A stretch of 64,000 nucleotides of DNA, taken from contig NZ_JAHQYI010000002.1 of assembly GCF_019061125.1 (NCBI RefSeq), positions 62,001-126,000 of the forward strand, read 5' to 3'. Both the position numbers and the translations under genes were made by a program. The stretch's first letter is position 1. Every line of letters starts with the position of its first letter. Below the pieces are notes generated by a model that made no database searches, had not been told where the DNA came from, and worked only from the letters and a program-made list of their open reading frames with translations. Shown piece by piece: positions 20,767-63,397 of this stretch. This DNA comes from Microbacterium sp. NC79. GTDB taxonomy: Bacteria; Actinomycetota; Actinomycetes; Actinomycetales; Microbacteriaceae.

Positions 20767-21690
20767 CTAGCTACGCGGCGGCAGTGCGTCGACAGCCGCC
20801 ACAATGGCCGCGAGTTCGCGGCGCACATCATGGCGGTCGTATCCGAGCAGGGCTGTTTCGGCGGCGTCAGGCTCGTAAGCGATGACATTGCCGCGGCCCT
20901 GCACAATGAAGCGATCCGGCTGGAAAGGGTGCTCTTCGTCGCGCTCTTCAATGGTGTGCGATGAGCCCGCGGCATCGGCAATCCACTGCCAGTATTCGGA
21001 GTAGCTCAGGCTCTCGTCGCCGACGAGATAGGCCTTGCCAGGCTCGCCGCGGTCGAGGGCGCCGATCAGCGCCTGCGCGAGGGAACGCACCGACATGTAG
21101 TTCGTGCCACCAGCTGGGCCCCAGAGACCTGGTTCCGCTCGCTCGCCGCGCACCCAGCTGACGAGGCGAGCAAACCCGCGCACCCCGCGGTCTGAGTTCG
21201 CGCCGACGATCGACGGCGGGTTCACGGTGATCGCCGCGAACGTCTCATCCGTCAGAGCACGCGCCCCCTCATCGGCTGCCTTTCTGGCGGCGATGTAGAG
21301 GTCGTTTGCGGCCCACTCGGGGTGCAGCTGGTGGTAGTACGATCCGACCTGCACGAACCGGGCAACTCCGGCCTTTTTCGCGGCGGCGGCGAACGCTGGA
21401 ACACCATCGCGTTGCACGCGACCCCAGAACGCTTCGTCATCGTCGCCTGCGGCAACGTGACGAATGTCGTGTCCTGCTGCGAAAATGATGCCGTCGAACC
21501 CGGAGAGGTCCACCGCTTCCGGTGCCATGTAGTCGCCAAGGAGTCGTTCGACTCCCGCGATGTGGCGGGGGTCACCCTCTGCCTCTTCGCGACGCGACAG
21601 AATGACGACGTCATCGCCACGCTCACGGAGCTGGCGCACGACCTCAGAGCCGATAAAACCGGTGCCGCCGACAACCAGAACACGACTCAT
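20767..21690 (-). CDS. Atypical SDR / NAD-dependent epimerase-like reductase
   Basis: The 307-residue protein starts with the Rossmann motif VVGGTGFIGSEVVRQL and has the extended-SDR layout. The catalytic region reads SYYHQLHPEWAANDLYIAARKAADE, so the usual YxxxK is shifted (the lysine comes five places after the tyrosine). It overlaps the hydratase gene upstream by 4 bp and is third in the operon led by the Hsd4A-like SDR. The operon starts at three KstR2-type operator sites. It probably reduces or oxidises a steroid-derived CoA ester or acid (inference). Confidence 0.8.
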   Translation of the reverse strand: MSRVLVVGGTGFIGSEVVRQLRERGDDVVILSRREEAEGDPRHIAGVERLLGDYMAPEAVDLSGFDGIIFAAGHDIRHVAAGDDDEAFWGRVQRDGVPAFAAAAKKAGVARFVQVGSYYHQLHPEWAANDLYIAARKAADEGARALTDETFAAITVNPPSIVGANSDRGVRGFARLVSWVRGERAEPGLWGPAGGTNYMSVRSLAQALIGALDRGEPGKAYLVGDESLSYSEYWQWIADAAGSSHTIEERDEEHPFQPDRFIVQGRGNVIAYEPDAAETALLGYDRHDVRRELAAIVAAVDALPPRS

Positions 21691-22472
21691 GCGAACGTCG
21701 CCTTTCCGGCTGCGATCACAACGGTTCCGTCGCGTTCAATGTCAAACGATTCGCCCCACGTGCGAATCTGCAGGTGGTCGCCCGGAATTACCATTCCCGA
21801 GAACCGACCCTCAAGCTCGACGAGGTCGGCCGGGTGCTTACCTGCCGCGTCAGCCAGCGGAATCAACGCACCGGCAATCGTGGCGAGGCCCTGCAGGATC
21901 GGCTTTTCCTGGCCGATCCTGGCGGCGGCTGCCGGGTCAATGTGAATGTGGTGGCGATCGCCGGTGAGGCGGTACAGCGCAGCTGAGTTCAGCGCAACGT
22001 TGTATTCGAGAACGTCACCCTCCCCCTCCCGCACCGCAGGTTCCGCTTTCGCTCCGCGTTCGCCGCCCCAGCCACCTGTGCCCGGGGCAAAGATCGACCA
22101 TGTGGCGGTGAAGTACTCGCAGGTGACCTCGATCTCAAAGATCGAGGCGGCACCCTTGTCCCACACGTTACCTACGCGCGCGCTCATCGAAATTTCGCCC
22201 TGTCGTGGCAGTTCCTTGTGCACGACGAGCTTCTGCGAGCCGTGCACCGACGTGTTGTCCCACGCGCCTTCGGTGGCGAGAACGTCGGGAGCCCACTGTG
22301 CAAGCGTCAGGCCAAACGTCGGCATCACCCGGAACTGATCTTCAAAGACCAGGTCGAGGCGATCGGCTGGCGCACCGACGGCGAGCGCGTAGAGAATCGC
22401 ATCCCACTCGGTGTAGCTCACGACGCGGTCACCAATGGGGCGACCGGCCCAGTCTCCGGCGGTTGCGGTCAT
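21687..22472 (-). CDS. MaoC-type enoyl-CoA hydratase (Hsd4B-like double hotdog)
   Basis: The 261-residue protein has the two-hotdog layout of MaoC/hydratase-2 enzymes: an N-terminal half ending near FAPGTGGWGG, and a C-terminal half with the catalytic motif LTGDRHHIHIDPAAAARIGQEKPILQGL, where D and H are the hydratase pair. It hydrates 2-enoyl-CoA to the (R)-3-hydroxyacyl-CoA. ATG 22472 overlaps the stop of the SDR upstream (ATGA). The pairing with that SDR mirrors the split multifunctional enzyme type 2 found in actinobacterial sterol clusters. Confidence 0.87.
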   Translation of the reverse strand: MTATAGDWAGRPIGDRVVSYTEWDAILYALAVGAPADRLDLVFEDQFRVMPTFGLTLAQWAPDVLATEGAWDNTSVHGSQKLVVHKELPRQGEISMSARVGNVWDKGAASIFEIEVTCEYFTATWSIFAPGTGGWGGERGAKAEPAVREGEGDVLEYNVALNSAALYRLTGDRHHIHIDPAAAARIGQEKPILQGLATIAGALIPLADAAGKHPADLVELEGRFSGMVIPGDHLQIRTWGESFDIERDGTVVIAAGKATFA

Positions 22473-23374
22473 GATCCGTACACCGGCTCGGGTGCGGGGG
22501 CAGCGGCGATCAGATCGCGCACGGCGGCGCCGACTTCGGCAGCCTCCCAGCGGCGACCAAGGTCGTTGGCAGGGCCGTGTGCCCAGCCGTTCTCGAGGCA
22601 AATCTTGCCGCCTTCGATTTCGATGACACGGCCCGTGACATCCGCTGCGTCTTCACTCGCGAGCCACGCGACAACCGGCGATACGTTTGCCGGGTTCATC
22701 TTGTCGAAGCCGTCCTCGGGCGCCGCCATCGCTTCAGCGAACGGCCCCTCGGTCATGCGGGTACGCGCCGACGGCGCAATGGCGTTGACGGTGACGCCGT
22801 AGCGACCCATCTCAGCTGCGGCAACAATCGACAGCGCCGCGATGCCTGCCTTGGCTGCCGAGTAGCTGGCCTGACCGATCGAGCCCTGCAGGCCTGCGCC
22901 CGACGACGTGTTGATGACGCGAGCGACCGGCTGGCGGCCCTCCTTGGATTCGGTGCGCCAGTATGCACCGGCGTGACGCATCGTTGCGAAGTGCCCCTTC
23001 AGGTGCACGCGAATAACGGCGTCCCACTCGTCTTCGCCGGTGTTGACCAGCATGCGGTCACGCACGAAGCCCGCGTTGTTGACGAGAATGTCGAGGCGTC
23101 CGAACGTGTCGATGGCCTGCTGCACGAGCTGGCCAGCCTGCTCGAAGTCTGCGATGTCGGAACCATTGGCGACGGCTTCGCCACCAGCGGCACGAATGAT
23201 GTCAACAACTTCCTGCGCGGGGCCGACGGATTCTCCGTCGCCACCGAGCGTCGTGCCGAGGTCGTTGACGACAACCTTGGCGCCCTGACGGGCAAGTTCG
23301 AGGGCGTGCTCGCGCCCGAGTCCGCGTCCGGCACCCGTCACGATTGCAACGCGTCCATCCAGAATTCCGGCCAT
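22469..23374 (-). CDS. SDR 3-hydroxyacyl-CoA dehydrogenase (Hsd4A-like)
   Basis: The 301-residue SDR has TGAGRGLG near residue 14, NNAGFVRDRMLVNT, S (INTSSGAGLQG) and YSAAK. The long insertion LKGHFATMRHAGAYWR and the tail EGWAHGP-like ENGWAHGPANDLGRRW are typical of the dehydrogenase domain of multifunctional enzyme 2. It would oxidise a (R)-3-hydroxyacyl-CoA with NAD and works with the MaoC protein that follows. AGAGGAGG precedes the ATG. It diverges from echA20 across three operator sites. Confidence 0.88.
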   Translation of the reverse strand: MAGILDGRVAIVTGAGRGLGREHALELARQGAKVVVNDLGTTLGGDGESVGPAQEVVDIIRAAGGEAVANGSDIADFEQAGQLVQQAIDTFGRLDILVNNAGFVRDRMLVNTGEDEWDAVIRVHLKGHFATMRHAGAYWRTESKEGRQPVARVINTSSGAGLQGSIGQASYSAAKAGIAALSIVAAAEMGRYGVTVNAIAPSARTRMTEGPFAEAMAAPEDGFDKMNPANVSPVVAWLASEDAADVTGRVIEIEGGKICLENGWAHGPANDLGRRWEAAEVGAAVRDLIAAAPAPEPVYGS

Positions 23375-23424: not shown

Positions 23425-23442
23425 ACCAAGCAATTGCTAGGT
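23425..23442. promoter_or_regulatory. KstR2-type operator 1 (Hsd4A-like / echA20)
   Basis: The site reads ACCAAGCAATTGCTAGGT, a near-perfect 18-bp palindrome with half-sites ACCAAG and CTAGGT. It lies in the 146-bp divergent region between the Hsd4A-like operon and echA20. Confidence 0.82.
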
Positions 23443-23469
23443 ATCTCTATCCTGCCCTTTTGCGAGCAA

Positions 23470-23487
23470 CCAAGCAAGTGCTAGGGT
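23470..23487. promoter_or_regulatory. KstR2-type operator 2 (Hsd4A-like / echA20)
   Basis: The site reads ACCAAGCAAGTGCTAGGG. Its start is 45 bp from that of operator 1. Confidence 0.75.
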
Positions 23488-23489
23488 CA

Positions 23490-23507
23490 AGCAAGCAAAC
23501 GTTAGGT
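23490..23507. promoter_or_regulatory. KstR2-type operator 3 (echA20-proximal)
   Basis: The site reads AGCAAGCAAACGTTAGGT, less symmetric than its neighbours. It lies 13 bp before the echA20 ATG, where binding would block initiation. Confidence 0.65.
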
Positions 23508-23520
23508 TACGAGGTTGTCC

Positions 23521-24279
23521 ATGACGCTTACATCCCAGATGCACGACAAAGGTGTTCGTGTCATCACGATGAACTACCCACCCGTGAACGCCCTGCCCGT
23601 GCAGGGCTGGTTCGACGTGGCCGATGCCATGATCGAAGCGGGCAAAGACGCAGACACGCGCGTTGTCGTACTGCGCGCCGAAGGCAAGGGCTTTAACGCC
23701 GGTGTCGATATTAAAGAGATGCAGAAGATCGAAGGCTTCTCCGGCATCCTCGGCGCAAACCGCGGCTGCTACGAGTCGTTCAAGGCGATTTACGAGTGCC
23801 CCGTGCCCGTGATCGCTGCGATCAACGGCTTCTGCGTCGGCGGCGGCGTTGGCTTCGCTGGCAACGCCGACACGATCATCGCTTCAGAAGACGCGTACTT
23901 TGGCGTTCCCGAGGTTGACCGCGGTGCCCTGGGCGCGGCAACGCACCTCAGCCGCCTGGTTCCGCAGAACCTGCTGCGCTCGATGTACTACTCCAGCCGC
24001 ACCATCACCGCCCAGCGTCTGTACGAGCTCGGCACGGTGTGGGACGTGGTTCCGCTCGACAAGCTCGAGGAGACCGCGCTCTCCTTCGCCAGCGAGATCG
24101 CGGCGAAGGACCCGCGTGTTATTCGCGCTGCGAAGGCGGCGCTGAACGGCATCGACCCGATGGACGTCAACGCGTCGTACCGCTTCGAGCAGGGCTTCAC
24201 GTTTGAACTCAACCTCGCCGGTGTCGCTGACGAGCACCGCGATGAGTTCGTCGCGACCGGCAAGAACCTCGACACGTAA
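23521..24279 (+). CDS. echA20: EchA20-like steroid ring-D CoA hydrolase (crotonase fold)
   Basis: The 252-residue crotonase closely follows mycobacterial EchA20 from memory: MNYPPVNALP, GFNAGVDIKEMQ, the oxyanion loop NGFCVGGGVGFAGNAD, GAATHLSRLVPQNL and the tail RFEQGFTFELNLAGVADEHRDEFV. EchA20 hydrolyses ring D of the indene-carboxyl-CoA intermediate of steroid breakdown. It opens an operon echA20-ipdA-ipdB-ipdC in the same order as in Mycobacterium, 9 bp ahead of ipdA. ATG 23521 with GAGG upstream is preferred to TTG 23515. Confidence 0.93.
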   Translation: MTLTSQMHDKGVRVITMNYPPVNALPVQGWFDVADAMIEAGKDADTRVVVLRAEGKGFNAGVDIKEMQKIEGFSGILGANRGCYESFKAIYECPVPVIAAINGFCVGGGVGFAGNADTIIASEDAYFGVPEVDRGALGAATHLSRLVPQNLLRSMYYSSRTITAQRLYELGTVWDVVPLDKLEETALSFASEIAAKDPRVIRAAKAALNGIDPMDVNASYRFEQGFTFELNLAGVADEHRDEFVATGKNLDT

Positions 24280-24288
24280 GTTTGATCG

Positions 24289-25131
24289 ATGAGCAACAAG
24301 CGCCTGCGGGATGAGGAGGTTCCCGGTCTCTTCCGCGATGGCATGACGATCGGGATTGGCGGCTGGGGGTCGCGGCGCAAGCCGATGGCCCTCGTGCGCG
24401 CCCTCATTCGCTCCGGCGTGCGCGGGTTGACGATTGTCAGCTTCGGCGGTGCCGATGTTGGCATGCTGTGCGCGACCGGGCAGGCCGCCCGCGTCATGCA
24501 CGGCTTCGTGTCGCTTGACACGATCGCGATCGAACCGCACTTCGCGGCGGCTCGGGTTGCCGGAACCATTCGCAACACCGATTTGGATGAGGCCATGCTG
24601 GTCTCGGGGTTGCGGGCAGCAGCTCACCGGCTGCCTTTTGAGGTCACGCGAGCGGGGCTCGGCTCTGACGCTGTGTTGCGCAATCCGGACATCAAGATGA
24701 TTCGCTCGCCGTACGCCGATGGCGAGGAACTCGTGGCAATGCCCGCGATTGAGCTCGATGTCGCGCTGATTCACGTGGATCGCGCCGATGAGCGCGGCAA
24801 CGGTCAAGTGCTCGGCGACGACCTGTTCTTCGACGACTACTTTGCCGCCGCAGCGGACGTAACGATCATGAGTGCAGAATCTGTGGTTCCGTCGCTGTCT
24901 GCCGAGCCCCTGCAATCGCTCGTCATTCCGCGCTTGAATGTCTCTCACATTGTCGAGGCTGAGCAGGGCGCAGCGCCGACCGCCTGCCTGCCGTCGTACC
25001 CGCGGGACGAGGCATTTCAGAAGATGTATGCCGCCTCTGTGGGTGACTGGGAGGCGTTTGCGTCTCGCTATGCGAACGTCTCACATGAGGAGTTCCGGCG
25101 GGCATATGCCGCGTTTGGGGAGGCGTCGTGA
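24289..25131 (+). CDS. ipdA: IpdA-like subunit, first copy (ring-C hydrolase / CoA-transferase fold)
   Basis: The 280-residue protein has the class I CoA-transferase-like alpha-subunit fold of IpdA: MTIGIGGWGSRRKPMALVRALIRSGV, FGGADVGML, GFVSLDTIAIEPHF, LDEAMLVSGLRAAAHRLPF, RAGLGSD and LFFDDYF. IpdAB opens ring C of the COCHEA-CoA intermediate. Compared with the copy at 42588 it departs further from the mycobacterial sequence: it has DEAM for DEGM, FEVTRAGLG for FLPIRAGLG, and no EAPNGAHFT motif. It lies inside the echA20-ipdABC operon and overlaps ipdB by 4 bp. Confidence 0.85.
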   Translation: MSNKRLRDEEVPGLFRDGMTIGIGGWGSRRKPMALVRALIRSGVRGLTIVSFGGADVGMLCATGQAARVMHGFVSLDTIAIEPHFAAARVAGTIRNTDLDEAMLVSGLRAAAHRLPFEVTRAGLGSDAVLRNPDIKMIRSPYADGEELVAMPAIELDVALIHVDRADERGNGQVLGDDLFFDDYFAAAADVTIMSAESVVPSLSAEPLQSLVIPRLNVSHIVEAEQGAAPTACLPSYPRDEAFQKMYAASVGDWEAFASRYANVSHEEFRRAYAAFGEAS

Positions 25132-25967
25132 CTCTTTCTTCGGACGTGACCGGTGGTTCCGACGTGACTGCTGGTGCTGAAGCGACTGCTGGTGCTGACG
25201 TGACGGATGTTTCGGACGTGGCGGATGTTTTGGACGTGACGCGCGCCGAGGTGTGTGCGGTTGCGATCAGCGATCTGTTTGTTGGTGCCGGCGAGATTCT
25301 GGCGAGCCCGACCGGGTTGGTTCCCCAACTCGGCGCCCGTCTAGCTCGCCTCACGCACGCGCCCGAGCTGATGCTGAGCGACGGCGAGGCCACGATGTTT
25401 GCGGATACGCCGGCGATCGATGAGCCATTCACCGAGCCGGAGCACTACCTGCCGTACCGCGCGCTGTTTGATCTGATTGCTCGCGGTAAGCGCCACGTCG
25501 TCATGGGCGGCTCGCAGCTCGATCAGTACGGCAATCACAACTTCTCCGCGATCGGTAATTGGCAGCGGCCGTCACACCAATTGCTCGGCGCGCGCGCCGC
25601 TGCGACGAACACCGCGAACCACGCGGTGAGCTATTGGATCCCGCGGCACGCGCCGCGCGTCTTCGTGCCCGCCGTCGACACCGTCTGCGGTGCTGGTTCC
25701 GTTCGACTTGCCGACGCCCGCTTCGCTGACCTGCGCCGCGTGGTGACAAATCTTGCGGTGCTCGACTTCTCCGGCCCAGGCGGCACAATGGCGCTCGTGA
25801 GCGTGCACCCCGGAGTATCTGTAGCCGAGGTGGCGGCAGCCACCGGTTTTGACCTTCATATTGCTGACGAGGTTCCGACGACCCGTCTTCCCACTGCTGG
25901 CGAACTCGCGCTGATTCGCGAGCGCCTTGACCCGCGCGATGCGCGATACCGAGAGGTTCCCCGCTGA
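25128..25967 (+). CDS. ipdB: IpdB-like subunit, first copy, with repetitive N-terminal extension
   Basis: This is the beta subunit of the IpdAB ring-C hydrolase: TRAEVCAVAISDLF, GARLARLTHAPELMLSDGEA, VVMGGSQLDQYGNHNFSAIGNWQRPS and VSVHPGV. From GTG 25128 it has 279 residues, but the first 36 are a low-complexity DVT/GAD repeat absent from the family. An internal GTG at 25236 would give a normal 243-residue protein starting MTRAEVCAVA. The conserved VRGxPGN motif is changed to ARAAATN, and DxVSGxG to DTVCGAG, so the activity may differ from the second copy. Confidence 0.83.
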   Translation: MTLSSDVTGGSDVTAGAEATAGADVTDVSDVADVLDVTRAEVCAVAISDLFVGAGEILASPTGLVPQLGARLARLTHAPELMLSDGEATMFADTPAIDEPFTEPEHYLPYRALFDLIARGKRHVVMGGSQLDQYGNHNFSAIGNWQRPSHQLLGARAAATNTANHAVSYWIPRHAPRVFVPAVDTVCGAGSVRLADARFADLRRVVTNLAVLDFSGPGGTMALVSVHPGVSVAEVAAATGFDLHIADEVPTTRLPTAGELALIRERLDPRDARYREVPR

Positions 25968-27040
25968 TGACCACTCCGCAGATGATTCGTACTGCTCTGA
26001 CCGACCTGACCGGCGTTGCGCACCCCGTGGTGCAGACCGGTATGGGTTGGGTGGCAGGCGCCAAGCTCGTGTCAGCCACCGCTAACGCTGGCGCACTGGG
26101 CATCCTGGCGTCGGCGACGATGACGTATGACGAGCTCGAGAAGGCGATCATCGAGACGAAGGAGCGCACCGACAAGCCGTTCGGCGTGAACCTGCGCGCC
26201 GATGCCGGTGACGCCGTTGAGCGTAGCGAGCTGCTGATCAAGCATGGCGTGAAGGTGGCGTCGTTCGCGCTGGCTCCGAAGGAGGCGCTGATCAAGCGTC
26301 TGAAGGATGCCGGCGTCGTTGTCATTCCGTCGATTGGGGCCGTGAAGCACGCGGAAAAGGTTGCTGCGTGGGGCGCAGACGCTGTGATGATTCAGGGCGG
26401 CGAGGGTGGCGGCCACACCGGTGCCGTGCCGACGTCGATCCTGCTGCCGTCTGTGGTGTCTTCTGTCGACATTCCGGTGATCGCGGCCGGTGGTTTCTCC
26501 GACGGACGCGGCCTCGCTGCCGCCCTTGCCTATGGCGCGGTCGGCGTTGGCATGGGAACGCGCTTTCTGCTGACCTCGGACTCGTCGGTTCCGGAGGCGA
26601 TCAAGCGCCGCTACCTGGAGTTTGGCCTCGACGGCACGGTCGTCACGACCAAGGCCGACGGCATGCCGCACCGCCTGTTGCGCACCGAGTTTGTTGAGGG
26701 CTTGGAGAACACCAACATCATCACGAACCTGCCTGCAACGCTCAAGCGTTCGCTGCAGTTCAAGAAGATGAGTGGCCTTTCATGGCCAGCGCTCGTGAAG
26801 GACATGTTCGCGATGAAGAAGGCGACCGGCCGCAGCTGGGCACAGATGTCGCAGGCCGCGAACACCCCGATTCTGCTCAAGCAGGGCCTCGTTGAGGGCG
26901 ACATGTCTGCCGGTATGCTCGCGTCTGGCCAGGTCGTCGGCGTGATCAATGACCTGCCGTCGTGTGAAGAGCTCGTCGACCGCGTCGTTCGCGAGGCCGC
27001 CGTACGCCTCGAAGCCCTCGGCGGACTGCTCGTTCGCTAG
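25967..27040 (+). CDS. ipdC: IpdC-like flavin oxidoreductase (nitronate monooxygenase fold)
   Basis: The 357-residue TIM-barrel flavoprotein has the family motifs PVVQTGMGWVAGAKLVSATANAGALGIL, ADAVMIQGGEGGGHTG and VIAAGGFSDGRGLAAALAYGAVGVGMGTRFLLT, with FMN-phosphate binding at AAGGFSDG and GMGTRF. IpdC acts on a CoA-thioester indane intermediate in ring C/D degradation. It overlaps ipdB by 1 bp and closes the operon. A strong terminator follows after about 90 bp. Similarity and position together make the assignment firm. Confidence 0.9.
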   Translation: MTTPQMIRTALTDLTGVAHPVVQTGMGWVAGAKLVSATANAGALGILASATMTYDELEKAIIETKERTDKPFGVNLRADAGDAVERSELLIKHGVKVASFALAPKEALIKRLKDAGVVVIPSIGAVKHAEKVAAWGADAVMIQGGEGGGHTGAVPTSILLPSVVSSVDIPVIAAGGFSDGRGLAAALAYGAVGVGMGTRFLLTSDSSVPEAIKRRYLEFGLDGTVVTTKADGMPHRLLRTEFVEGLENTNIITNLPATLKRSLQFKKMSGLSWPALVKDMFAMKKATGRSWAQMSQAANTPILLKQGLVEGDMSAGMLASGQVVGVINDLPSCEELVDRVVREAAVRLEALGGLLVR

Positions 27041-31378: not shown

Positions 31379-31396
31379 ACCAAGCAATTGTTTGGT
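31379..31396. promoter_or_regulatory. KstR2-type operator 4 (fadE30 / enoyl-CoA hydratase)
   Basis: The site reads ACCAAGCAATTGTTTGGT, one of the most symmetric copies. It lies between two divergent operons that together hold seven catabolic genes. Confidence 0.85.
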
Positions 31397-40301: not shown

Positions 40302-40386
40302 GGAATGACCTTTCCAGTATCTTGAACAAATATTTGATTGGTTACGAGACGAAGCAACGATGCTCGACCTCGGGGATGGAAAAGCA

Positions 40387-44828: not shown

Positions 44829-44846
44829 ACCAAGCGTTTGTTCAAC
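44829..44846. promoter_or_regulatory. KstR2-type operator 6 (kstR2 / fadD3)
   Basis: The site reads ACCAAGCGTTTGTTCAAC. Its left half is perfect and the right half is weaker. It lies 20 bp before the kstR2 start and 71 bp before fadD3. Confidence 0.7.
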
Positions 44847-50407: not shown

Positions 50408-50425
50408 ACCAAACAAATGCTAGGT
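50408..50425. promoter_or_regulatory. KstR2-type operator 7 (Rv3549c-like / SDR)
   Basis: The site reads ACCAAACAAATGCTAGGT. It lies 7 bp before the ATG of the plus-strand SDR, so a bound repressor would also cover its ribosome or transcription start. Confidence 0.8.
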
Positions 50426-53982: not shown

Positions 53983-53984
53983 GA

Positions 53985-54842: not shown

Positions 54843-54878
54843 GATTGCCGTCTCCGGGAGGGGCGGGAGTGGGCGGAG

Positions 54879-54913
54879 ATGGGGGCTTCAGAGCTGAGCT
54901 CTGAAGCCCCCAT
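54879..54913 (-). other. Strong stem-loop between the binding-protein and LivH genes
   Basis: ATGGGGGCTTCAGAGCT and AGCTCTGAAGCCCCCAT are perfectly complementary. No T stretch follows on the minus strand, so it is more likely an mRNA-stabilising hairpin or partial attenuator, giving more binding protein than membrane parts, than a full terminator. Confidence 0.8.
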
Positions 54914-54924
54914 CACTTACATAG

Positions 54925-56183: not shown

Positions 56184-56201
56184 AGCAAACAAATGCTTGG
56201 T
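56184..56201. promoter_or_regulatory. KstR2-type operator 8 (liv-type transporter)
   Basis: The site reads AGCAAACAAATGCTTGGT and lies 30 bp upstream of the binding-protein start. Confidence 0.8.
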
Positions 56202-56236: not shown

Positions 56237-56254
56237 ACGAAGCGTTTGCTTGGT
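56237..56254. promoter_or_regulatory. KstR2-type operator 9 (SDR at 56287)
   Basis: The site reads ACGAAGCGTTTGCTTGGT. It is 53 bp from operator 8 and 33 bp before the divergent SDR, so the divergent pair has one site each. Confidence 0.78.
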
Positions 56255-56286
56255 TTCTACTGTAGCGCAGTGCTACCGTGCCGAGC

Positions 56287-57045
56287 ATGACCCACGTTGA
56301 ACCAGCTCAAGATTTCGCTCAGCTTCCCGGCGTTGCCGTCGTGATCGGAGGTTCTGGTGGCATTGGCGCCGCGTGTGTGCACCGCCTGACTGCCGGTGGC
56401 GCGCACGTTGTAGCCACCTATCGTTCGACAGCTCCAACCAACCTGGGTTCCGCCGATTTGGCGCGCCTCGACGTCACAGACGCCAATGCTGCTACCGCCC
56501 TTTTCGACGAGATTGCGGAGCGTCACGGGGGCATCCACACGGTGGTCCATGCGGCGGGTCCGCACGTTCCGATGAGGTACCTGTCTACTGTGTCGCCTGC
56601 GGAGTTCGCGGCGCAAGTTGACGGGGATCTCGTGGGTTTCTACAACATCGTGCACGCGGCCGTTCCGCACCTTCGCACGTCTCGCGGCTCCCTCACCGTC
56701 GTGTCATCGGCTGGCACCAAGCGCTACCCCGTGCGCGACGGCCTGTCCGCCGCACCGAAGGGCGGCGTTGAGGCGCTTGCTCGCGGTATCGCCGCAGAAG
56801 AAGGCAAGTACGGTGTGCGAGTAAACAGCGTCGGGCCCGGCATGCTGCACGATGGCATGTCAGCCAAACTTCAAGCATCGGGCGACCTCGATCAGCGCGC
56901 GTTGGACGTCGCGACGGCGAACATTCCGATGCGGCGATACGGCTATGCCAGCGACATCGCGGAGGCCGTGGCCTTCCTTGCTTCCCCGCGCGCCAACTTC
57001 ATCACGGGTCAGAAGCTCGACGTCGACGGCGGCTACGGCATCTAA
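56287..57045 (+). CDS. SDR-fold protein lacking the catalytic tyrosine
   Basis: The 252-residue protein has the SDR frame: VVIGGSGGIGAACVHRL, HAAGPHVP, S in VVSSAGT, and a normal C-terminal FITGQKLDVDGGYGI. At the active site, however, the YxxxK motif reads SAAPK (RDGLSAAPKGGVEA), so Ser replaces the catalytic Tyr while Lys is kept. It may be a non-redox SDR, a binding protein or an enzyme with a displaced tyrosine (RYPVRDG lies nine residues earlier). ATG 56287 has no Shine-Dalgarno; GTG 56278 is an alternative. Operator 9 precedes it. Confidence 0.83.
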   Translation: MTHVEPAQDFAQLPGVAVVIGGSGGIGAACVHRLTAGGAHVVATYRSTAPTNLGSADLARLDVTDANAATALFDEIAERHGGIHTVVHAAGPHVPMRYLSTVSPAEFAAQVDGDLVGFYNIVHAAVPHLRTSRGSLTVVSSAGTKRYPVRDGLSAAPKGGVEALARGIAAEEGKYGVRVNSVGPGMLHDGMSAKLQASGDLDQRALDVATANIPMRRYGYASDIAEAVAFLASPRANFITGQKLDVDGGYGI

Positions 57046-57148: not shown

Positions 57149-57166
57149 CCCAAGCAATCGCTTGAT
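57149..57166. promoter_or_regulatory. KstR2-type operator 10 (P450 operon)
   Basis: The site reads CCCAAGCAATCGCTTGAT, with core CAAGCAATCGCTTG nearly perfect. It ends 11 bp before the P450 ATG and just before the GGAG ribosome site. Confidence 0.78.
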
Positions 57167-57177: not shown

Positions 57178-58389
57178 ATGGCAATGGCGCCAAAACCCAT
57201 CGACGTACACACCCAAGAGTTCCTCGAGGACCCCAACGCAATGCTGGGCTGCCCGTTCTCTCGCATCCAACATGCAAATAGCCCAACGGGTGAGGAATTT
57301 TTCTCCTACGAAAGCGTTCGATCGCTATTCCGTGACCCCCGCGTGCGCCCCAAGAATGCCCAAGTCTTCCGCGACCTCGGTGTGACCGAAGACAGCCCGA
57401 TCATGAAATTCGTGACCACAGGCAACTTCAATATGATGTCCGCCGAAGATCACGCACGTATTCGCCCCATCATCGTGCGCGGGTTTCGCCCAGCGCGCAT
57501 CAAAGCGACCGAACCGCGAATCCAGGCCATCGCCGACGAGCTCGCGGACGCCATCGTCATGAATGGCAGTACCGCAAACGTTGTCGCCGACTACTCGCAC
57601 TATGTTTCGATCCGCACGATCTCTGCCTTCATCGGAGTGCCGCCGGAAGACATTGACAAGTTTGAAAGCGCATCGGTCGAGCTGATCCTACTCAGTGCGG
57701 TACCTTTCGAACCATCCCGGCCTCGCCTGGAGGCAGCACTCACAACAGTGCACGCCTACGTCGGCAGTCTTATCGAGCGTCGTCGCGCAGCTCCGCAAGA
57801 CGACTTCATCAGCGATCTGATCGCCATCCAAGACGCGGGTGAGAAGCTTTCGCAGGACGAGCTCATCTGGTCGATTGTTTTCATTCTGCTCGCGGGGCAC
57901 GACACGACGCGCTCCCAGATTGCCTCGACCGCTCGCATGCTGATTGACAACGGCTTATGGGAACAGGCCTACACCGACCGCACGTTGGTGGCACGGGCTC
58001 TCAAAGAGTCGCTACGGATCTACCCTGCCGCATACCGGTTCGCTCGTGTGGTTGAAGAAGACATGACGTATGGTGACGTCACGTTCGCCGCAGGTGGCCG
58101 CGTCGCGCTCAATCTGGCGGCAGCTGGCCGTGATCCCGAGGTCTTTGAAAACCCGGATGAGGTTGTCCTCGACCGCGCCGCTCCAGGCTTCGACATCGGT
58201 TTCGGGTACGGCAATCATCACTGCATCGGCTGGGCGCTCGCCACAGCCGAGATCACGATCGGCGTGCAGACACTTGTCGACCGCCTTCAGGCCGTCACGT
58301 TGCGGTCCCCCGTCGAATACAAAGTTGGCGGAACCATTGCTGGCCCAGAAAAAGTGGAGATTGAGTTTCAGCCGAGGACCGCACAATGA
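57178..58389 (+). CDS. Cytochrome P450
   Basis: The 403-residue soluble P450 has the I-helix LLAGHDTTRSQ, the K-helix ESLR, the meander FENPDEVVLDRAAPGFDIGFG and the heme loop FGYGNHHCIGWALA with ligand C349. I cannot assign a CYP family. The class is usual for actinobacterial three-component systems, and its electron donors, a ferredoxin and a reductase, are encoded two and three genes downstream. GGAG precedes ATG 57178. Its stop overlaps the epoxide hydrolase start. The steroid-derived substrate is an inference from operator 10. Confidence 0.92.
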   Translation: MAMAPKPIDVHTQEFLEDPNAMLGCPFSRIQHANSPTGEEFFSYESVRSLFRDPRVRPKNAQVFRDLGVTEDSPIMKFVTTGNFNMMSAEDHARIRPIIVRGFRPARIKATEPRIQAIADELADAIVMNGSTANVVADYSHYVSIRTISAFIGVPPEDIDKFESASVELILLSAVPFEPSRPRLEAALTTVHAYVGSLIERRRAAPQDDFISDLIAIQDAGEKLSQDELIWSIVFILLAGHDTTRSQIASTARMLIDNGLWEQAYTDRTLVARALKESLRIYPAAYRFARVVEEDMTYGDVTFAAGGRVALNLAAAGRDPEVFENPDEVVLDRAAPGFDIGFGYGNHHCIGWALATAEITIGVQTLVDRLQAVTLRSPVEYKVGGTIAGPEKVEIEFQPRTAQ

Positions 58390-59657
58390 CAATCGATCTT
58401 TCACGGGTTGAGAAGTTTGACATCACCATCGGTCAAGACGTTCTTGATGACTTGAAACGCCGCCTCGACGATACCCGTTGGCCCAATCTCCAGGTGGCGG
58501 CCGAAGAAAGCTCGATTTACGGCATAGACCAGGCCACGCTCGCGCGACTTGTGGAGCGGTGGCGAGGCGGGTTCGACTGGCGCGCGGCTGAGACCGAGCT
58601 CAACAAGTACAACCACTATCGCGCCACAGTGCAGGGACAAACCATCCACTTCATGCACCGTCCGTCAAAGCGATCCGATGCAATACCGGTGATCGCGACG
58701 CACGGTTGGCCGTGGACTTTCTGGCATTGGAGCAAGGTCGTCGATGAGCTCTCGGACCCAACGGGTGCGGATGCCGACGGCGTTCCAGCGTTCGATCTCG
58801 TAATTCCGTCATACCCAGGGTTCGGGTTTTCGACACCGTTGCACGACCCGACGCTCACCTTTTGGCGCGTTGCGGACCTCTGGCAAGAACTCATGGTTGA
58901 TGTCCTCGGCTACGAAACATACGGCGCTGTGGGCGGCGACTTCGGCGCCATGGTCACTGCACAGATGGGGCACAAATATGCGGACTCTCTCGTAGCAATC
59001 CACGTCAGCACGCCAACACCGTTGGATATTTTTCACGGTGAGCGATGGTGGGACATCACTGAGGGTCGGATATCACCCGAGGGCGCAAGCGACATTGAGC
59101 GCGACGGCCTGCAACGATACATGAAGAAGTTTGTCGCACATATCGCGGTCCACATGCTGGACCCGCAGACGCTCACGTACGGACTCTCTGACTCTCCCGT
59201 AGGAATGCTTGCCTGGATCGTCCGTCGCTACCAGCTCTGGGTTGATCACGACAATGACCTTGAGTCCGTATTCTCGACCGATGACCTCCTGACAATCGCA
59301 ACGATCTTCTGGGCGACCAACTCCATCGGCTCAAGCATTCGCACATACGCGAACACCGCACACTATCGCTGGCAACCCTCACACGACCGCGTTCCCGCGA
59401 TTGAAGCACCGGCCGGAATCACATTCCTTGGGTTTGAGAATCCACCTGGCGTCACCGCCCAGCAACGCGCTGACGCATATCGTTCGGCCGCGTCTAAACG
59501 CAGCCCGAGCGACCGCAGCGCTCGCTGGTACAACCTAGTCAACGTAAAAGCCCATGAACACGGCGGCCATTTCGCGCCGTGGGAGAACCCCGAGGGCTGG
59601 ATTGTCGATATGCGCGAGACATTCGCGCTCGCGCAGAAAGCAAAGTCGAATGGGTAA
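58386..59657 (+). CDS. Epoxide hydrolase (EHN-domain, microsomal/juvenile-hormone type)
   Basis: The 423-residue protein has the N-terminal EHN domain (FDITIGQDVLDDLKRRLDDTRWPNL...GFDWRAAETELNKYNHYRATVQG), the oxyanion motif HGWPW, the nucleophile D185 in GAVGGDFGAMV and the C-terminal histidine region HEHGGHFAPWENPEGWIVDMRE. Ring tyrosines are present in the cap. It hydrolyses an epoxide to a diol. Coupling to a P450 by a 4-bp overlap suggests that the P450 makes the epoxide it opens (inference). Confidence 0.92.
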   Translation: MTIDLSRVEKFDITIGQDVLDDLKRRLDDTRWPNLQVAAEESSIYGIDQATLARLVERWRGGFDWRAAETELNKYNHYRATVQGQTIHFMHRPSKRSDAIPVIATHGWPWTFWHWSKVVDELSDPTGADADGVPAFDLVIPSYPGFGFSTPLHDPTLTFWRVADLWQELMVDVLGYETYGAVGGDFGAMVTAQMGHKYADSLVAIHVSTPTPLDIFHGERWWDITEGRISPEGASDIERDGLQRYMKKFVAHIAVHMLDPQTLTYGLSDSPVGMLAWIVRRYQLWVDHDNDLESVFSTDDLLTIATIFWATNSIGSSIRTYANTAHYRWQPSHDRVPAIEAPAGITFLGFENPPGVTAQQRADAYRSAASKRSPSDRSARWYNLVNVKAHEHGGHFAPWENPEGWIVDMRETFALAQKAKSNG

Positions 59658-59967
59658 CATCACATTTCTCGATGAGCACGGAGAAGAGTCGCTGACCGCT
59701 GATATGTCGATGGATGACACCGTCATGGAAGTTGGTCGCCGTGAGGGTGTGCGCGGCATCATCGCTGAGTGCGGTGGTGTGATGTCGTGCGGCACGTGCC
59801 ACGTCTGGCTCGAGCCAGACGTCAACGAGAAGTTCGAACCAAAGGAAGACGTCGAAGACGAGGTTCTGGCTGAATTGCATGGGTACTGCGAAAACAGCAG
59901 ACTGGGCTGCCAGCTCTACCTCGTGGAAGATGCAGATGTCGTGGTGCAGGTTCCGGAACGGTTGTGA
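59650..59967 (+). CDS. [2Fe-2S] ferredoxin, adrenodoxin type
   Basis: The 105-residue ferredoxin has cluster ligands C41, C47, C50 (ECGGVMSCGTC) and C87 (RLGC), as in adrenodoxin- and putidaredoxin-like proteins. An extra cysteine is at C80. It carries electrons from the reductase to the P450. ATG 59650 lies inside the end of the epoxide hydrolase gene (8-bp overlap); the longer frame from 59554 is a shadow of that gene. Confidence 0.92.
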   Translation: MGNITFLDEHGEESLTADMSMDDTVMEVGRREGVRGIIAECGGVMSCGTCHVWLEPDVNEKFEPKEDVEDEVLAELHGYCENSRLGCQLYLVEDADVVVQVPERL

Positions 59968-59971: not shown

Positions 59972-61153
59972 ATGACAAATCATCGTGCGGTTGATGTTCT
60001 GATCGTCGGTGGCGGTCAGGCAGGCTCTGACGTTGCTTTTGCCCTCCGTGAGAGCAACTACCCCGGCAGCATTTTGATCGTCGGGGCGGAACCACACCTG
60101 CCGTACCAGCGACCACCGCTTTCCAAGACATTTCTCTCGAGCGAGGCAGCACCGGACTCCCTGGTGTTGCGGGGAACCGGTGCATACGAGCGCGGAAACA
60201 TTGGGGTCGAGCTCGGAAGAGCAGTGGCAAACATTGATCTTGGTGCACGGTGCGCGCAACTTGACGATGAGCAAACCATCACCTTCGAGAATGTCGTGCT
60301 TGCCCAGGGCGGAACCCCTCGCCAGTTGACGGTGCCGCCCGACGTACAGTCCAGGACGCATTACCTTCGTTCAGCTGCCGACGGCGAGCGGCTGCGCGCC
60401 GAGCTCGACGCCGCACAGCGTGTCGTGGTGATTGGGGGCGGCTTCATCGGACTCGAGCTGGCGGCATCTGCACGGAAGCGCAGCAAAACGGTCACCGTGA
60501 TCGAAATGACCGATCGCTTACTCGGCCGCGTCGTGCACCCGGTGATATCGAACGCTTATGCCGACATTCACCGTCGCCGTGGCGTCGATGTGATTCTGAG
60601 CGCAAATATTGCCTCGATGACGTCAGTGGCATCTGGATCCGTTCTCATCACGCTGGGCGATGGTCGTGAGCTAGAAGCTGACCTGATCGTGGTGGGCATC
60701 GGGTTGGATCCTGACACGTCACTCGCGGCAGCACTAGGACTCGAAATCGAACGCGGCGTGGTCTGCAACGAGGATGGCCGCACGAGTCACCCCATCGTGT
60801 TTGCCGCCGGTGACTGCTCCTCAGTTCGCGACGCGCACGGCAGGATCAGCCGCATCGAGTCGGTGCATAACGCGACTGAACAAGCGAAGTCGGTCGCGGC
60901 AACAATCGCTGGCGCGGCGCGACGGCCGCGGCAGACTCCCTGGTTCTGGTCGGACCAATACGACGTCAAGCTACAAATTGTCGGGGCAACCGGCGCTGAG
61001 GTTGAAGCAGAAATCGATGGCGACATCGACGCCGAATCATTTGTCATAAGACATTGCCAGAATGGTGAGCTGGTCGGCCTTACCGCGGTGAACCGCCCGC
61101 GCGACTTCATGGCAGCGAGACGCCAACTCGACGCGCAGAAGACGCTCGCATAA
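59972..61153 (+). CDS. NAD(P)H-dependent ferredoxin reductase (putidaredoxin/rhodocoxin reductase type)
   Basis: The 393-residue flavoprotein has the FAD motif VDVLIVGGGQAGSDVAFAL, LPYQRPPLSKTFL, the NAD motif VVVIGGGFIGLELAASA and the late FAD motif VFAAGDCSS. The C-terminal part (WFWSDQYDVKLQIVGA) is typical of P450 ferredoxin reductases. ATG 59972 lies 4 bp after the ferredoxin stop with a weak GAAAG. It completes a self-sufficient P450 system in one operon. Confidence 0.92.
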   Translation: MTNHRAVDVLIVGGGQAGSDVAFALRESNYPGSILIVGAEPHLPYQRPPLSKTFLSSEAAPDSLVLRGTGAYERGNIGVELGRAVANIDLGARCAQLDDEQTITFENVVLAQGGTPRQLTVPPDVQSRTHYLRSAADGERLRAELDAAQRVVVIGGGFIGLELAASARKRSKTVTVIEMTDRLLGRVVHPVISNAYADIHRRRGVDVILSANIASMTSVASGSVLITLGDGRELEADLIVVGIGLDPDTSLAAALGLEIERGVVCNEDGRTSHPIVFAAGDCSSVRDAHGRISRIESVHNATEQAKSVAATIAGAARRPRQTPWFWSDQYDVKLQIVGATGAEVEAEIDGDIDAESFVIRHCQNGELVGLTAVNRPRDFMAARRQLDAQKTLA

Positions 61154-61279: not shown

Positions 61280-62146
61280 TTAACGCACGACCGCGTCGCT
61301 GAAGCGGGGCGGGTCGCCCAGGAGCGGGCGGCGTGATGCTGGCTGACGGCCATCAACATCGGTCACACCCAGCACACCCGCAAGCTCTGCGGCGACCAGG
61401 ACCCGCCCGGTGAAGCGCTCTTTGTCTGCGTGGGCGTCCAACGCCGCGATAACCCGGCCAGGGAACTCGGGCGATTCCGTCGTCTGGTCAACACCGCGGT
61501 ACTTGTCGGGCTCCGCTGCGAGCACGCGAGTCGTGCGCTCAGTGCGCAAGAGGCCCATCCAGATAGACACCGCCGTCACACCGTGCGGCTTCAAATCAAC
61601 CGCGAAGTCGTGTGCCATCTTGTCGACGCCCGCCTTGACCGCACCATATGCCGGGCCGTGCATGAAACACGTGCCGCCGAATCCGGACGTGTTCACAACG
61701 AGCCCACGACGCGATGGGTCAGCGATCAGCAGCGGTGCCGCGAGCGCCGTCATGACATACGTCGAGCGCAGACCGATGTCGAACATCTGATCCATGTCGA
61801 GCGATTGTTCCCAAAACGGCAGCGGCGTGACGAGCCCATCGGGTGCGGCGAAGACGTTGTTGACGAGCACATCGACGTAGCCGTGTTCTGCACGTACCTG
61901 TTCCACGAGCGCCGCGACCGACTCATCAGAGCTGTGATCAACGGCGACCGCGATACCGCGCCCGCCGCGTGCCGTCACTTCTGCGGCCGTCGCTGTGATG
62001 GTTCCGGGAAGATCCCCCGTGGGGCTTTCGGTCGAGCGTCCGGTGACGTACACCGTCATGCCTGCCTCGCCAAGGGCCAACGCGATACCCTTTCCGGCTC
62101 CGCGGCTCGCTCCGGTCACAATGGCAACGCGGGGTGTGTCGGTCAT
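61280..62146 (-). CDS. Short-chain dehydrogenase/reductase (DHRS1-like)
   Basis: The 288-residue SDR has TGASRGAGKGIALALGEAG, the extended NNVFAAPDGLVTPLPFWEQSLDMDQMFDIGLRS, S in VVNTSGFGGTCFMHGPAYGAVKAGVDKMAHDFAVDL (YGAVK) and a C-terminal VTDVDGRQPASRRPLLGDPP tail, all features of the DHRS1-like group. ATG 62146 is preferred to the longer frame to 62191. It diverges from the SDR at 62238 over operator 11. Function unknown, KstR2 control likely. Confidence 0.86.
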   Translation of the reverse strand: MTDTPRVAIVTGASRGAGKGIALALGEAGMTVYVTGRSTESPTGDLPGTITATAAEVTARGGRGIAVAVDHSSDESVAALVEQVRAEHGYVDVLVNNVFAAPDGLVTPLPFWEQSLDMDQMFDIGLRSTYVMTALAAPLLIADPSRRGLVVNTSGFGGTCFMHGPAYGAVKAGVDKMAHDFAVDLKPHGVTAVSIWMGLLRTERTTRVLAAEPDKYRGVDQTTESPEFPGRVIAALDAHADKERFTGRVLVAAELAGVLGVTDVDGRQPASRRPLLGDPPRFSDAVVR

Positions 62147-62206
62147 CTCGTGCTCTCTTTCGGTACATGGGATTGTCGCGGCACGCGCCACACGCTAGCA
62201 TTCTGA

Positions 62207-62224
62207 CACAAGCAAATGCTTGGT
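62207..62224. promoter_or_regulatory. KstR2-type operator 11 (two divergent SDRs)
   Basis: The site reads CACAAGCAAATGCTTGGT. It lies 13 bp before the plus-strand SDR and 60 bp from the minus-strand one. Confidence 0.8.
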
Positions 62225-62237
62225 TGAAAGGAGCATC

Positions 62238-62978
62238 ATGGGCGATGCAAACTTCGGATTCTCCGACGACGCGATTCTGATCACCGGCGCCGGCAGCGGC
62301 ATTGGCCGTGCCACGGCACTGCGCGCCGTAGGCATGGGCCTGCGCGTCTCAGGTTGGGACCTCAACCCGACCGGCCTGGCAGAGACGGCAGAACTGGTGA
62401 CGGCCGCGGGCGGAACCTTCCACTCGTGGGTTGCCGACGTGTCTGACGACGAGGCGGTCACCGCCGGCGTCGCATCGGCGACCGAAGCGCTCGGCTCGAT
62501 TCGCTACCTGCACAACAACGCTGGCCCCGCATCCAGCGCGCCCATCCCGTTCGACCAGGCCCTCCTCATCTCCGTTGGTAGCGTCCGTCGCGTCACCGAT
62601 GCGTGGGCCGCCGCTGGCCCTGGCGACGGTGCCGCCATGGTGGCAACCGCATCGGTTGCAGGCAACAAGGTCGGCACCAACTCAGACTGGTATTCGGCAA
62701 GCAAGGCCGCGATCATGGGCTACGTTCGGCACCTCACCGCCTACCGTTCGCACGAGTTCCGTAGCAACGCGGTCGCCCCTGGCATGACAGACACCCCGCG
62801 CCTGACCGGCTTCGCCGAAAGCGAGGTTGGCCAGCGGGTCATGGAGCGCATTCCGCTGAACCGGATGGCAACTCCCGACGATATCGCCTACGCCACCCTC
62901 TTCCTCCTCTCCCCCGTAGCCAGCTACATCAACGGCGTCTTCCTGCCCGTTGACGGCGGCTGGACGGTGACGCAGTGA
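62238..62978 (+). CDS. Short-chain dehydrogenase/reductase
   Basis: The 246-residue SDR has TGAGSGIGRATALRAV, NNAGPASSAPIPF, S in VATASVAGNKVGTNSDWYSASKAAIMGYVR (YSASK) and the end FLPVDGGWTVTQ. AAGGAG precedes ATG 62238; the TTG 62220 frame overlaps operator 11. It overlaps the thioesterase by 4 bp and begins an operon with a thioesterase and an MFS transporter. Confidence 0.88.
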   Translation: MGDANFGFSDDAILITGAGSGIGRATALRAVGMGLRVSGWDLNPTGLAETAELVTAAGGTFHSWVADVSDDEAVTAGVASATEALGSIRYLHNNAGPASSAPIPFDQALLISVGSVRRVTDAWAAAGPGDGAAMVATASVAGNKVGTNSDWYSASKAAIMGYVRHLTAYRSHEFRSNAVAPGMTDTPRLTGFAESEVGQRVMERIPLNRMATPDDIAYATLFLLSPVASYINGVFLPVDGGWTVTQ

Positions 62979-63397
62979 CCCTGTCTCCCGTTCTGCACTC
63001 ACACACGTCACGGCTGAGCTACGCCGACACCGACCCCGCGGGGATTCTCTACTACGCGGCCTGGTTTCCGATGATGGAGCGCCTGCAGTCAGAGTTCATG
63101 TATCTCCAGGGGCTTCGTCAGGACACTCTGAAAGACACCCACGGCTGGTGGACGGTCTCCCGCGCAACACAGTGTGAGTACCTCGCCGCTGCCGTGCTCT
63201 TTGATGAGATTCGCATCGACCTGCGCATCGGCGACATCAGCCGCTCCTCGTTCAAGTTTCACCACGAGATGGTGCGCACGAGCGACAACGTGACCGTGGC
63301 CCGCTCATGGATTCACGTCGTCACGGTGTCACCCGAGCAGAAGGCAATTTCCATTCCCGAAGGTCTCCGCGCGCAGCTCGACGCGTGGATGCAGTGA
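62975..63397 (+). CDS. 4-hydroxybenzoyl-CoA thioesterase-type hotdog protein
   Basis: The 140-residue single-hotdog protein has the 4HBT active-site stretch SYADTDPAGILYYAAWFPMMERLQSEFM with the catalytic Asp, and KFHHEMVR in the central strand. It would hydrolyse an acyl-CoA to release CoA. The start is GTG overlapping the SDR stop. In this operon it could free CoA from dead-end steroid-CoA esters (inference). Confidence 0.87.
   Translation: MTLSPVLHSHTSRLSYADTDPAGILYYAAWFPMMERLQSEFMYLQGLRQDTLKDTHGWWTVSRATQCEYLAAAVLFDEIRIDLRIGDISRSSFKFHHEMVRTSDNVTVARSWIHVVTVSPEQKAISIPEGLRAQLDAWMQ

Follow-up and report, generated by a model that had tools for sequence, protein, structure and literature searches.

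Why would a bacterium carry a set of genes for the breakdown of steroid rings C and D when the usual enzymes for rings A and B appear to be absent from its genome? This question is raised by a 43-kb island of Microbacterium sp. NC79, which lies within the 64,000-nucleotide stretch analysed here (the window; positions 62001-126000 of contig C2) of a genome of 2,861,126 bases in three contigs (99.06% complete, 0.34% contaminated; its contigs are cited as C1 and C2, other genomes by G-codes and loci by L-codes). Judging from sequence comparison, we propose, at a probability of about 60%, that the island is a complete KstR2 regulon serving as a stand-alone pathway, with which the cell would scavenge C/D-ring (perhydroindane) remnants of steroids. 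The type of regulon is already known; what would be new is its occurrence in a lineage without KstD, KshA and HsaC, mostly together with a transporter of its own and partly with a side-chain module. No description of C/D-only steroid degraders in Microbacteriaceae was found in the open-access literature, as far as its text was available, which is not proof of absence.

Genes were identified from gene calls, from hmmscan family models judged against their cut-offs, from matches to the Protein Data Bank (PDB) and from gene order, the numbering of fadE30-33 being assigned from gene order alone. The island encodes kstR2, fadD3, fadE30-33, ipdF, echA20, ipdC, fadA6, two short-chain dehydrogenases/reductases (SDRs; PRK07791 and PRK07856) and two ipdAB pairs, and counterparts, by family model or gene order, were found for 14 of the 14 regulon genes in Table 1 of PMC5380842. 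No core reading frame is interrupted in the window. These core genes are the following (window coordinates, strand; ORF, open reading frame; ACAD, acyl-CoA dehydrogenase):

22469..23374, minus, SDR of PRK07791 type (482 bits, cut-off 373), Rv3548c-like
23515..24279, plus, echA20 (HIEC-CoA hydrolase, ring D opening); PRK07938 409 bits, cut-off 260, a model that corresponds to EchA20, in agreement with gene order
24289..25131, plus, second ipdA-like subunit; 242 bits to PDB 6co6
25128..25967, plus, second ipdB-like subunit; follows the second ipdA, found in most Micrococcales loci read, no NCBIfam match
25967..27040, plus, ipdC (5-OH HIC-CoA reductase); FabK model 225 bits, below the cut-off of 453; 79 related loci
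29355..30146, minus, ipdF; PRK07831 418 bits, cut-off 336
30143..31312, minus, fadE30-type ACAD; ACAD models below cut-off, gene order
32283..33455, plus, fadE31-type ACAD; ACAD models below cut-off, gene order
33452..34420, plus, fadE32-type ACAD; ACAD models below cut-off, gene order
34357..35508, plus, fadE33-type ACAD; IpdE2 model 274 bits, cut-off 450, gene order
42588..43451, plus, ipdA (COCHEA-CoA hydrolase alpha); 329 bits to PDB 6co6
43448..44203, plus, ipdB; adjoins ipdA, found in relatives, no NCBIfam match
44200..44808, minus, kstR2 (TetR repressor); best PDB matches 2ibd, 4w1u and 4w97
44945..46531, plus, fadD3 (HIP-CoA ligase); PRK07656 640 bits, just under the cut-off of 657; ORF opens at 44750, homology from residue 66
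48368..49588, minus, fadA6-type thiolase; PRK07851 701 bits, cut-off 580; ORF opens at 49924, homology from residue 113
49581..50369, minus, SDR PRK07856 (313 bits, cut-off 255), Rv3549c-like

An earlier sequence-only reading of the window had listed kstR2, fadD3, fadE30-33, ipdF, ipdC, echA20, fadA6, ipdAB and an Rv3549c-like SDR, and gene calls, family scans and gene order back this list. The mycobacteria-like order that it described is likewise borne out, core genes and local order matching the KstR2 regulon of Mycobacterium tuberculosis, M. smegmatis and Rhodococcus jostii RHA1. As it also stated, the island exceeds the mycobacterial regulon, and unlike that regulon and the RHA1 one it has ipdAB twice, one more hydratase, one more thiolase, and ATP-binding cassette (ABC) transporter and P450 operons. 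Its echA20-ipdABC operon does exist, but the ipdAB within it is the second copy: the two IpdA copies are 49% identical, and the pair at 42588/43448 is the one nearest to the solved IpdA (329 bits against 242 bits for the copy in the echA20-ipdC operon). The second pair is found in 16 of the 17 Micrococcales loci read, the exception being L006, and a second pair is also reported for R. equi (PMC5380842).

The repressor itself matches PDB chain 2ibd best (E 1.5e-48), followed by 4w1u and 4w97, both named KstR2 (4.3e-46). In the DNA-contacting helix region (TTVRDIAD.AGILSGSLYHHF) the repressor hardly differs from the solved KstR2 chains, and AGILSGSLYHHF is conserved. The operators were scored with a matrix built from 46 different 18-mers, which occur 80 times across 31 loci of relatives, some of them overlapping. 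The window and its near-copy L003 were left out; the training 18-mers had been picked by at most two mismatches to a window-derived pattern, so that the matrix is neither blind nor fully independent. At a score of at least 14 it finds 11 sites in the window, against 0.2 expected per 64 kb (50 Markov shuffles), and thereby the eleven copies of an 18-bp palindrome already noted in the sequence-only reading; the consensus is ACCAAGCAATTGCTTGGT. The predicted KstR2 operators, to which no strand is assigned, are:

23425..23442, score 30.3
23469..23486, score 24.0
23490..23507, score 19.8
31379..31396, score 30.4; at the equivalent place in several actinobacterial families
40325..40342, score 14.9, the lowest of the eleven
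42524..42541, score 25.2
44829..44846, weak predicted operator between kstR2 and fadD3, score 9.6, additional to the eleven; its first 14 bases are the mycobacterial motif with one mismatch
50408..50425, score 27.4
56184..56201, score 23.4
56237..56254, score 21.7
57149..57166, score 23.1
62207..62224, score 24.0

The eleven sites fall into eight intergenic regions instead of the seven first claimed. That they are only intergenic is directly so for eight of them, but those at 31379, 42524 and 62207 touch the longest ORFs and become intergenic only when the starts are moved to the onset of homology. The three gel-shift oligonucleotides of KstR2 in PMC3068626, the source of the M. tuberculosis operators, score 23.7, 17.3 and 24.1 with the relatives' matrix; since they score so well, we regard the palindrome as the predicted KstR2 operator, with some copies more certain than others. 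Together with the near-identical DNA-contacting region, these scores bear out the original assignment to a KstR2-type ring C/D regulon. The published 14-bp motif, which is independent of the window, occurs with at most one mismatch at seven places (1.0 expected), six of which coincide with five of the eleven sites or with 44829. A matrix made from the three gel-shift operators alone, which likewise owes nothing to the window, places its first eight matches at sites (the eighth at 14.1, against 10.1 in shuffles); four matches elsewhere come next (13.4-14.0), and 23490, 40325, 42524 and 50408 lie outside its top 20. Operators precede the echA/fadE31 and echA20 operons also in Nocardioides, Amycolatopsis and Arthrobacter loci, and the echA/fadE31 site is present in Microbacterium loci too. 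The common site of the window is an 18-bp palindrome, against 14 bp for the published motif. The genomes of PMC3068626 have three predicted sites each; here there are 11 in eight regions of the window, to which no fewer than three strong candidates in other parts of the genome are added. The idea that the 18-bp site is of a different kind from the 14-bp motif was rejected, given that the gel-shift operators score 17-24 and that six of the places carry the 14-bp motif, and also because the site before echA/fadE31 fits both patterns. A matrix iterated within the window was likewise abandoned, weak sites having entered it (26 matches at 12, 3.6 expected), and was replaced by the relatives' matrix.

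The other half of the argument concerns rings A and B. A complete 9,10-seco degrader is defined in PMC4810484 by at least six of eight key enzymes, KshA and HsaC being obligatory. KshA and HsaC were sought in 23 genomes, namely those of 22 of the 79 loci with IpdC relatives (9 of 9 Microbacteriaceae, 7 of 8 Micrococcaceae and 6 others, L017 left out) and our own; KstD was sought with a query from Arthrobacter (G006) in 24 distinct genomes (25 entries), which with G118 comprise 11 Microbacteriaceae and 13 others. Among these genomes, G009 is titled a complete chromosome and G001 comes from an uncultured sample. KstD (E<=1e-40) was found in 13 of the 13 non-Microbacteriaceae and in none of the 11 Microbacteriaceae, our genome included, in a search in which KstD-like proteins from other families, with an identity of about 44%, came up at E values of about 1e-74. 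The KshA_C domain (PF19298, E<=1e-3) and HsaC (E<=1e-10; G118 not in the set) each gave 13 of 13 against 0 of 10, again with no match in our genome. The HsaC query came from a record titled Rhodococcus rhodnii and has 582 bits to PDB 2zi8. At 12.4 Mb, this genome (G020, L058) seems large and may be mislabelled or mixed; it was used only as the source of HsaC and as one of the 13 positives. Across 299 Microbacteriaceae genomes (85 genera), KshA_C reaches E<=1e-3 in 12, six of them over the cut-off of 23.3 bits, and 11 of the 12 matches are partial with at most 26.9 bits; IpdC (E<=1e-60) occurs in three, our genome, G118 and G297, the last being identical to G010 (Microcella) by its contig coordinates and counted once. 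Unlike the classic KstR2 hosts, our genome yields no KstD, KshA or HsaC. HsaD and HsaA were dropped as decisive markers: HsaD exceeds its cut-off in 6 of 23 genomes, and Micrococcaceae bearing KshA and HsaC score below the 298 bits of our genome, while HsaA exceeds its own in 6 of 25 entries and reaches E<=1e-30 in all 13 non-Microbacteriaceae, in our genome (335 bits) and in G118 (140 bits). As our genome has HsaA-, HsaB- and HsaD-like genes, KstD, KshA and HsaC are the three markers on which the claim that it lacks the usual ring A/B enzymes depends. This gap and the sites elsewhere in the genome escaped the sequence-only reading because it worked from the window alone.

IpdC has relatives in 79 loci, with L080 (Filobacillus, 35%) distant and the remaining record titles actinobacterial; the closest named relative is an uncultured Microbacterium at 98% identity. 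The core genes, including kstR2, fadD3, ipdAB and fadA6, are present in seven more Microbacteriaceae (G002, G004, G007, G009, G010, G015 and G118) in a largely conserved order, the exceptions being an inverted echA20-ipdAB in G009 and insertions in G118 and G015; the islands of G001, G003 and G005 were read within their IpdC loci. Microbacterium luticocti DSM 19459 and Microcella pacifica KN1116 are among the named relatives that carry the island. Because the island recurs in these seven, one of them titled a complete chromosome, assembly gaps are an unlikely cause of the missing A/B enzymes. Islands of Micrococcaceae (Arthrobacter, Glutamicibacter, Paeniglutamicibacter) have nearly the same C/D order and the second ipdAB copy; in contrast, all seven Micrococcaceae genomes searched have KstD, KshA and HsaC, and in G006, G008 and G012 these are encoded close to the C/D island, on one contig with it, together with a second KstR2-like and FadD3-like gene. 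The Micrococcaceae have no close P450. An IpdC tree of 79 rows, made by a quick method and without L075 and L080, joins Microbacteriaceae to Micrococcaceae (SH-aLRT 93, not starred), nested among families in which A/B genes were found wherever they were tested for. From this placement, an ancestral C/D-only state is less likely than loss of the A/B half or a transfer that brought only the C/D half. Searching plasmid records with IpdC gave 33 records, the best at 66% (Nocardia), with no Microbacteriaceae genus in the organism tally. Beside its island (L164:8699-16130), G009 carries diverged ipdC, ipdB and ipdA genes (54%, 39% and 56%) along with two more genes that resemble kstR2; sequences similar to the operator (two to three mismatches) accompany them, and the whole may form a parallel pathway.

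The predicted regulon may also extend beyond the window. A genome-wide search with the site pattern gave 71 matches (21 for the reversed control pattern) and missed some window sites, so that the list of outside sites is incomplete; 55 of the 71 lie outside the window, and all were scored. Four reach 14: C1:204032, C1:567325, C1:660426, which lies inside reading frames, and C1:2207879 (15.1). Another 186 kb of the genome, chosen partly because of matches, was scanned with the relatives' matrix and yielded six sites of at least 14. Two of these, L096:8427 and L125:4489, fall within reading frames and were discounted; a third, L097:2807, is covered by the longest ORF. The site at C1:204032 (27.6) precedes the electron transfer flavoprotein genes etfB and etfA and a 566-residue protein with a cytochrome b561 domain, an operon that would form a fitting electron outlet for the FadE/ACAD enzymes. 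This operon (L094:9033-12633) is divergent from a MarR gene. C1:567325 (24.8) precedes a FadD8-like ligase gene, which itself follows genes for a CasI-like protein (597 of 900 bits), a steroid thiolase (PRK07850, over cut-off), an SDR and a CasG-like protein (641 of 750); further upstream are ACAD, MaoC, ChsH2-like and Ltp2-like (Thiolase_C_1) genes, none of which has its own site. C1:46930 (19.0) precedes an HsaD-like hydrolase gene with an oligopeptide/nickel-type ABC operon, and C2:128807 (20.7) possibly precedes an unannotated gene. In Microbacterium sp. CFH 31415 (G015), CasI-, ChsH2- and Ltp2-like genes are inserted between livH and livK of the island itself, with sites at L209:15755, 17458 and 19008.

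Further genes of the window would complete the proposed pathway:

21687..22601, minus, MaoC-type double hydratase (PF22622 and PF01575), found in relatives; candidate hydratase for beta-oxidation of HIP-CoA
28189..29340, minus, thiolase PRK07801 (684 bits, cut-off 591); candidate HIP side-chain thiolase
31441..32286, plus, enoyl-CoA hydratase PRK08290 (444 bits, cut-off 280); ORF opens at 31312, homology from about residue 44
51429..56154, minus, Liv-type ABC transporter (livF, fused livM-livG, livH, livK), by family scan; proposed importer of HIP-type acids

We envisage that perhydroindane acids (HIP and relatives) would be imported, probably by the Liv operon, and activated by FadD3 to HIP-CoA, which would release KstR2 from about a dozen operators, as this effector does in other actinobacteria. 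The propanoate would be removed by beta-oxidation with FadE30, the PRK08290 or MaoC hydratase, an SDR and the PRK07801 thiolase; if the chemistry of the orthologues holds, IpdF/IpdC, EchA20 (ring D), IpdAB (ring C), FadA6 and FadE31-33 would complete the breakdown. HIP-CoA as effector of KstR2, FadD3 as HIP-CoA ligase and the chemistry of IpdF, IpdC, EchA20 and IpdAB are known from orthologues (PMC5380842). With the KstR2/HIP pathway of M. tuberculosis, M. smegmatis and RHA1 (PMC3068626, PMC5380842) the island shares a repressor of nearly the same DNA-contacting region, the operator class, core genes and local order. Remnants that retain part of the side chain are also likely substrates, because the side-chain module lies beside or among KstR2 sites in our genome and one relative. 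The two hydratases are candidates for the HIP-CoA hydratase, which for RHA1 is listed as unknown (PMC8399759); both accompany C/D genes in many actinobacterial loci. As to the source of such remnants, RHA1 transiently releases and takes up again cholate metabolites including perhydroindanes, according to a review (PMC8399759), and HIP is described as an extracellular estrogen metabolite in another (PMC12507874). The proposed importer would resemble RHA1 CamABCD/CamM, ABC and major facilitator superfamily (MFS) systems for the uptake of released steroid remnants including perhydroindanes (PMC8399759), in role. The Liv operon is present in seven of the eight Microbacteriaceae islands read, the window included (not in G118, 60 kb read), and in one of five from Micrococcaceae (G008; absent from G006, G012, G016 and G017, 40-80 kb read). 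Extending the proposal to the lineage is more tentative, at somewhat less than even odds: Microbacteriaceae with the island may have kept rings C/D only, with importers, the ETF operon and in some members the side-chain module under KstR2, and may cross-feed on leaked perhydroindanes, side chain included.

Several findings weigh against this proposal. Glutamicibacter G008 has both the Liv operon and A/B genes, so that Liv is no clean mark of the A/B-less state. G118, the eleventh member of Microbacteriaceae, has a full-length, distant KshA_C match of 98.7 bits in its island span (elsewhere the best are 272-319). Our own HsaA-like protein reaches 335 bits (cut-off 450), against 377-384 in most Micrococcaceae with KshA and HsaC and 250 in G017, and our HsaD-like proteins reach 298 and 215-216 bits (cut-off 400), against 273-285 in such Micrococcaceae; the gene of the 298-bit protein (C1:46 kb) has its candidate KstR2 site 43 bases upstream. 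At C1:2101-2107 kb (L126:8168-14539), a catechol-2,3-dioxygenase (C23O)/HpaD-type extradiol dioxygenase (238 and 220 bits, both below cut-off) is encoded with HsaD-like, HsaA-like, IclR and HsaB-like (176, cut-off 230) proteins. In the side-chain cluster of our genome the only site is at the last ligase gene, the 18 kb with the ACAD, ChsH2- and Ltp2-like genes holding none of at least 9, and an Ltp2-like side-chain aldolase (E<=1e-40) occurs in only two of 11 Microbacteriaceae, against 10 of 13 others. The site at C2:128807 lies inside the longest ORF unless the gene starts later. Ring A/B enzymes without homology to those tested may exist. The KshA-like Rieske oxygenase of G118 lies at L170:19150-19776 (G118:C1:1357149-1357775), and no KstD was found in that genome.

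Four other explanations were weighed, some of which involve the P450 operon:

57178..58389, plus, cytochrome P450 of uncharacterised type (PF00067)
58386..59657, plus, epoxide hydrolase-like protein (PF06441 and PF00561)
59650..59967, plus, [2Fe-2S] ferredoxin of 105 residues by translation, presumably so from its cysteine pattern
59993..61153, plus, ferredoxin reductase; HcaD model 345 bits, cut-off 450, PF07992 and PF14759; ORF opens at 59879

The strongest rival for our own genome, unlikely as we hold it, is an estrogen degrader using the 4,5-seco route, in which a catechol on the already aromatic A ring would be made either by the P450, aided by the epoxide hydrolase, the ferredoxin and the reductase, or by the HsaA/B-like hydroxylase; the C23O-like enzyme would cleave it and the island would finish HIP. 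By its description the actinobacterial estrogen (aed) pathway, with the P450 AedA and the dioxygenase AedB, also passes through HIP, and its enzymes are other than KstD, KshA and HsaC; transformation of estradiol or its metabolites has been reported for strains of Microbacterium (PMC12507874). The P450 operon has the site at 57149, and the C23O-type gene adjoins the HsaA-, HsaB- and HsaD-like ones; however, this cluster shows no site of at least 9 in the 20 kb scanned, and an IclR gene adjoins it. Since a close P450 homologue (65%) was found in only one of the ten other Microbacteriaceae (G010, the only other island genome searched that has one) and HsaA-like proteins in only two of 11, the estrogen route does not explain the family-wide pattern. 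Searches with the P450 returned no names beyond "cytochrome P450" and "family 103". The same HsaA-, HsaB-, HsaD-like and extradiol dioxygenase genes, one HsaD-like gene having a candidate KstR2 site, and the side-chain cluster with CasG-, CasI-, ChsH2- and Ltp2-like genes might instead belong to a complete degrader that attacks rings A and B with non-homologous enzymes or with ones that have diverged too far for the searches (for example, the P450 for KshA and the C23O-type dioxygenase for HsaC). This seems distinctly unlikely, given that neither KstD nor KshA_C was detected at the thresholds above, although the KstD search reached about 44% identity, and that most other A/B-less relatives also lack HsaA- and P450-like genes.

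It is improbable that the regulon has been re-purposed for another hydrindane or a cyclic terpenoid acid. The extra SDRs, the P450, the epoxide hydrolase and the second ipdAB pair go beyond the needs of plain HIP, but KstR2, FadD3, IpdC, EchA20, IpdAB and the operators are common to genomes with ring A/B genes, and the second ipdAB pair is shared with Micrococcaceae that have these genes and with R. equi (PMC5380842). A decaying remnant of a once complete pathway, now out of use, would agree with the position of Microbacteriaceae in the IpdC tree and the likely loss or partial transfer, yet is very improbable: the core frames are open, Microbacterium, Salinibacterium and Microcella have core genes and operators in common, and the added modules have sites.

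If scavenging of C/D-ring remnants is indeed the function of the island, leaked HIP-type acids feed specialised consumers, and part of environmental steroid mineralisation would be split between species; the "central" C/D pathway would be a transferable module in its own right. Such organisms would also offer soil-type hosts in which to study HIP uptake, the HIP-CoA hydratase and KstR2 without the upstream pathway. As the survey of steroid-degrader genomes in PMC4810484 demands KshA and HsaC, it would leave them uncounted.

The remaining genes of the island are these:

20767..21690, minus, NAD-dependent epimerase/dehydratase-like protein (PF01370), found in relatives' islands
38956..39561, minus, PaaY-like hexapeptide protein; TIGR02287 259 bits, cut-off 320
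39561..40301, minus, SDR by family scan
40824..41717, minus, aldo-keto reductase (PF00248)
41714..42532, minus, SDR; homology from about residue 38, true start probably about 42420
50433..51263, plus, SDR by family scan
56278..57045, plus, SDR by family scan
61280..62191, minus, SDR by family scan
62220..62978, plus, SDR; homology from about residue 14, true start probably about 62259

The island may extend to C2:128.8 kb. Beyond the last SDR come a thioesterase-like frame, the gene of an MFS transporter and that of an oxidoreductase of the old yellow enzyme type (window 62979-64000, L097:24-1969). An Rfam scan returned tRNA only. The 20 repeat families shown reflect mostly similarity between SDR or ACAD coding regions, as far as inspected. 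A 117-bp stretch is duplicated at 38592 and 38721 (window 38592-38837; 99% identical) with 19-bp GCGACAATC-type repeats; it bears no relation to the operators, and a 61% similar copy lies at 27171.

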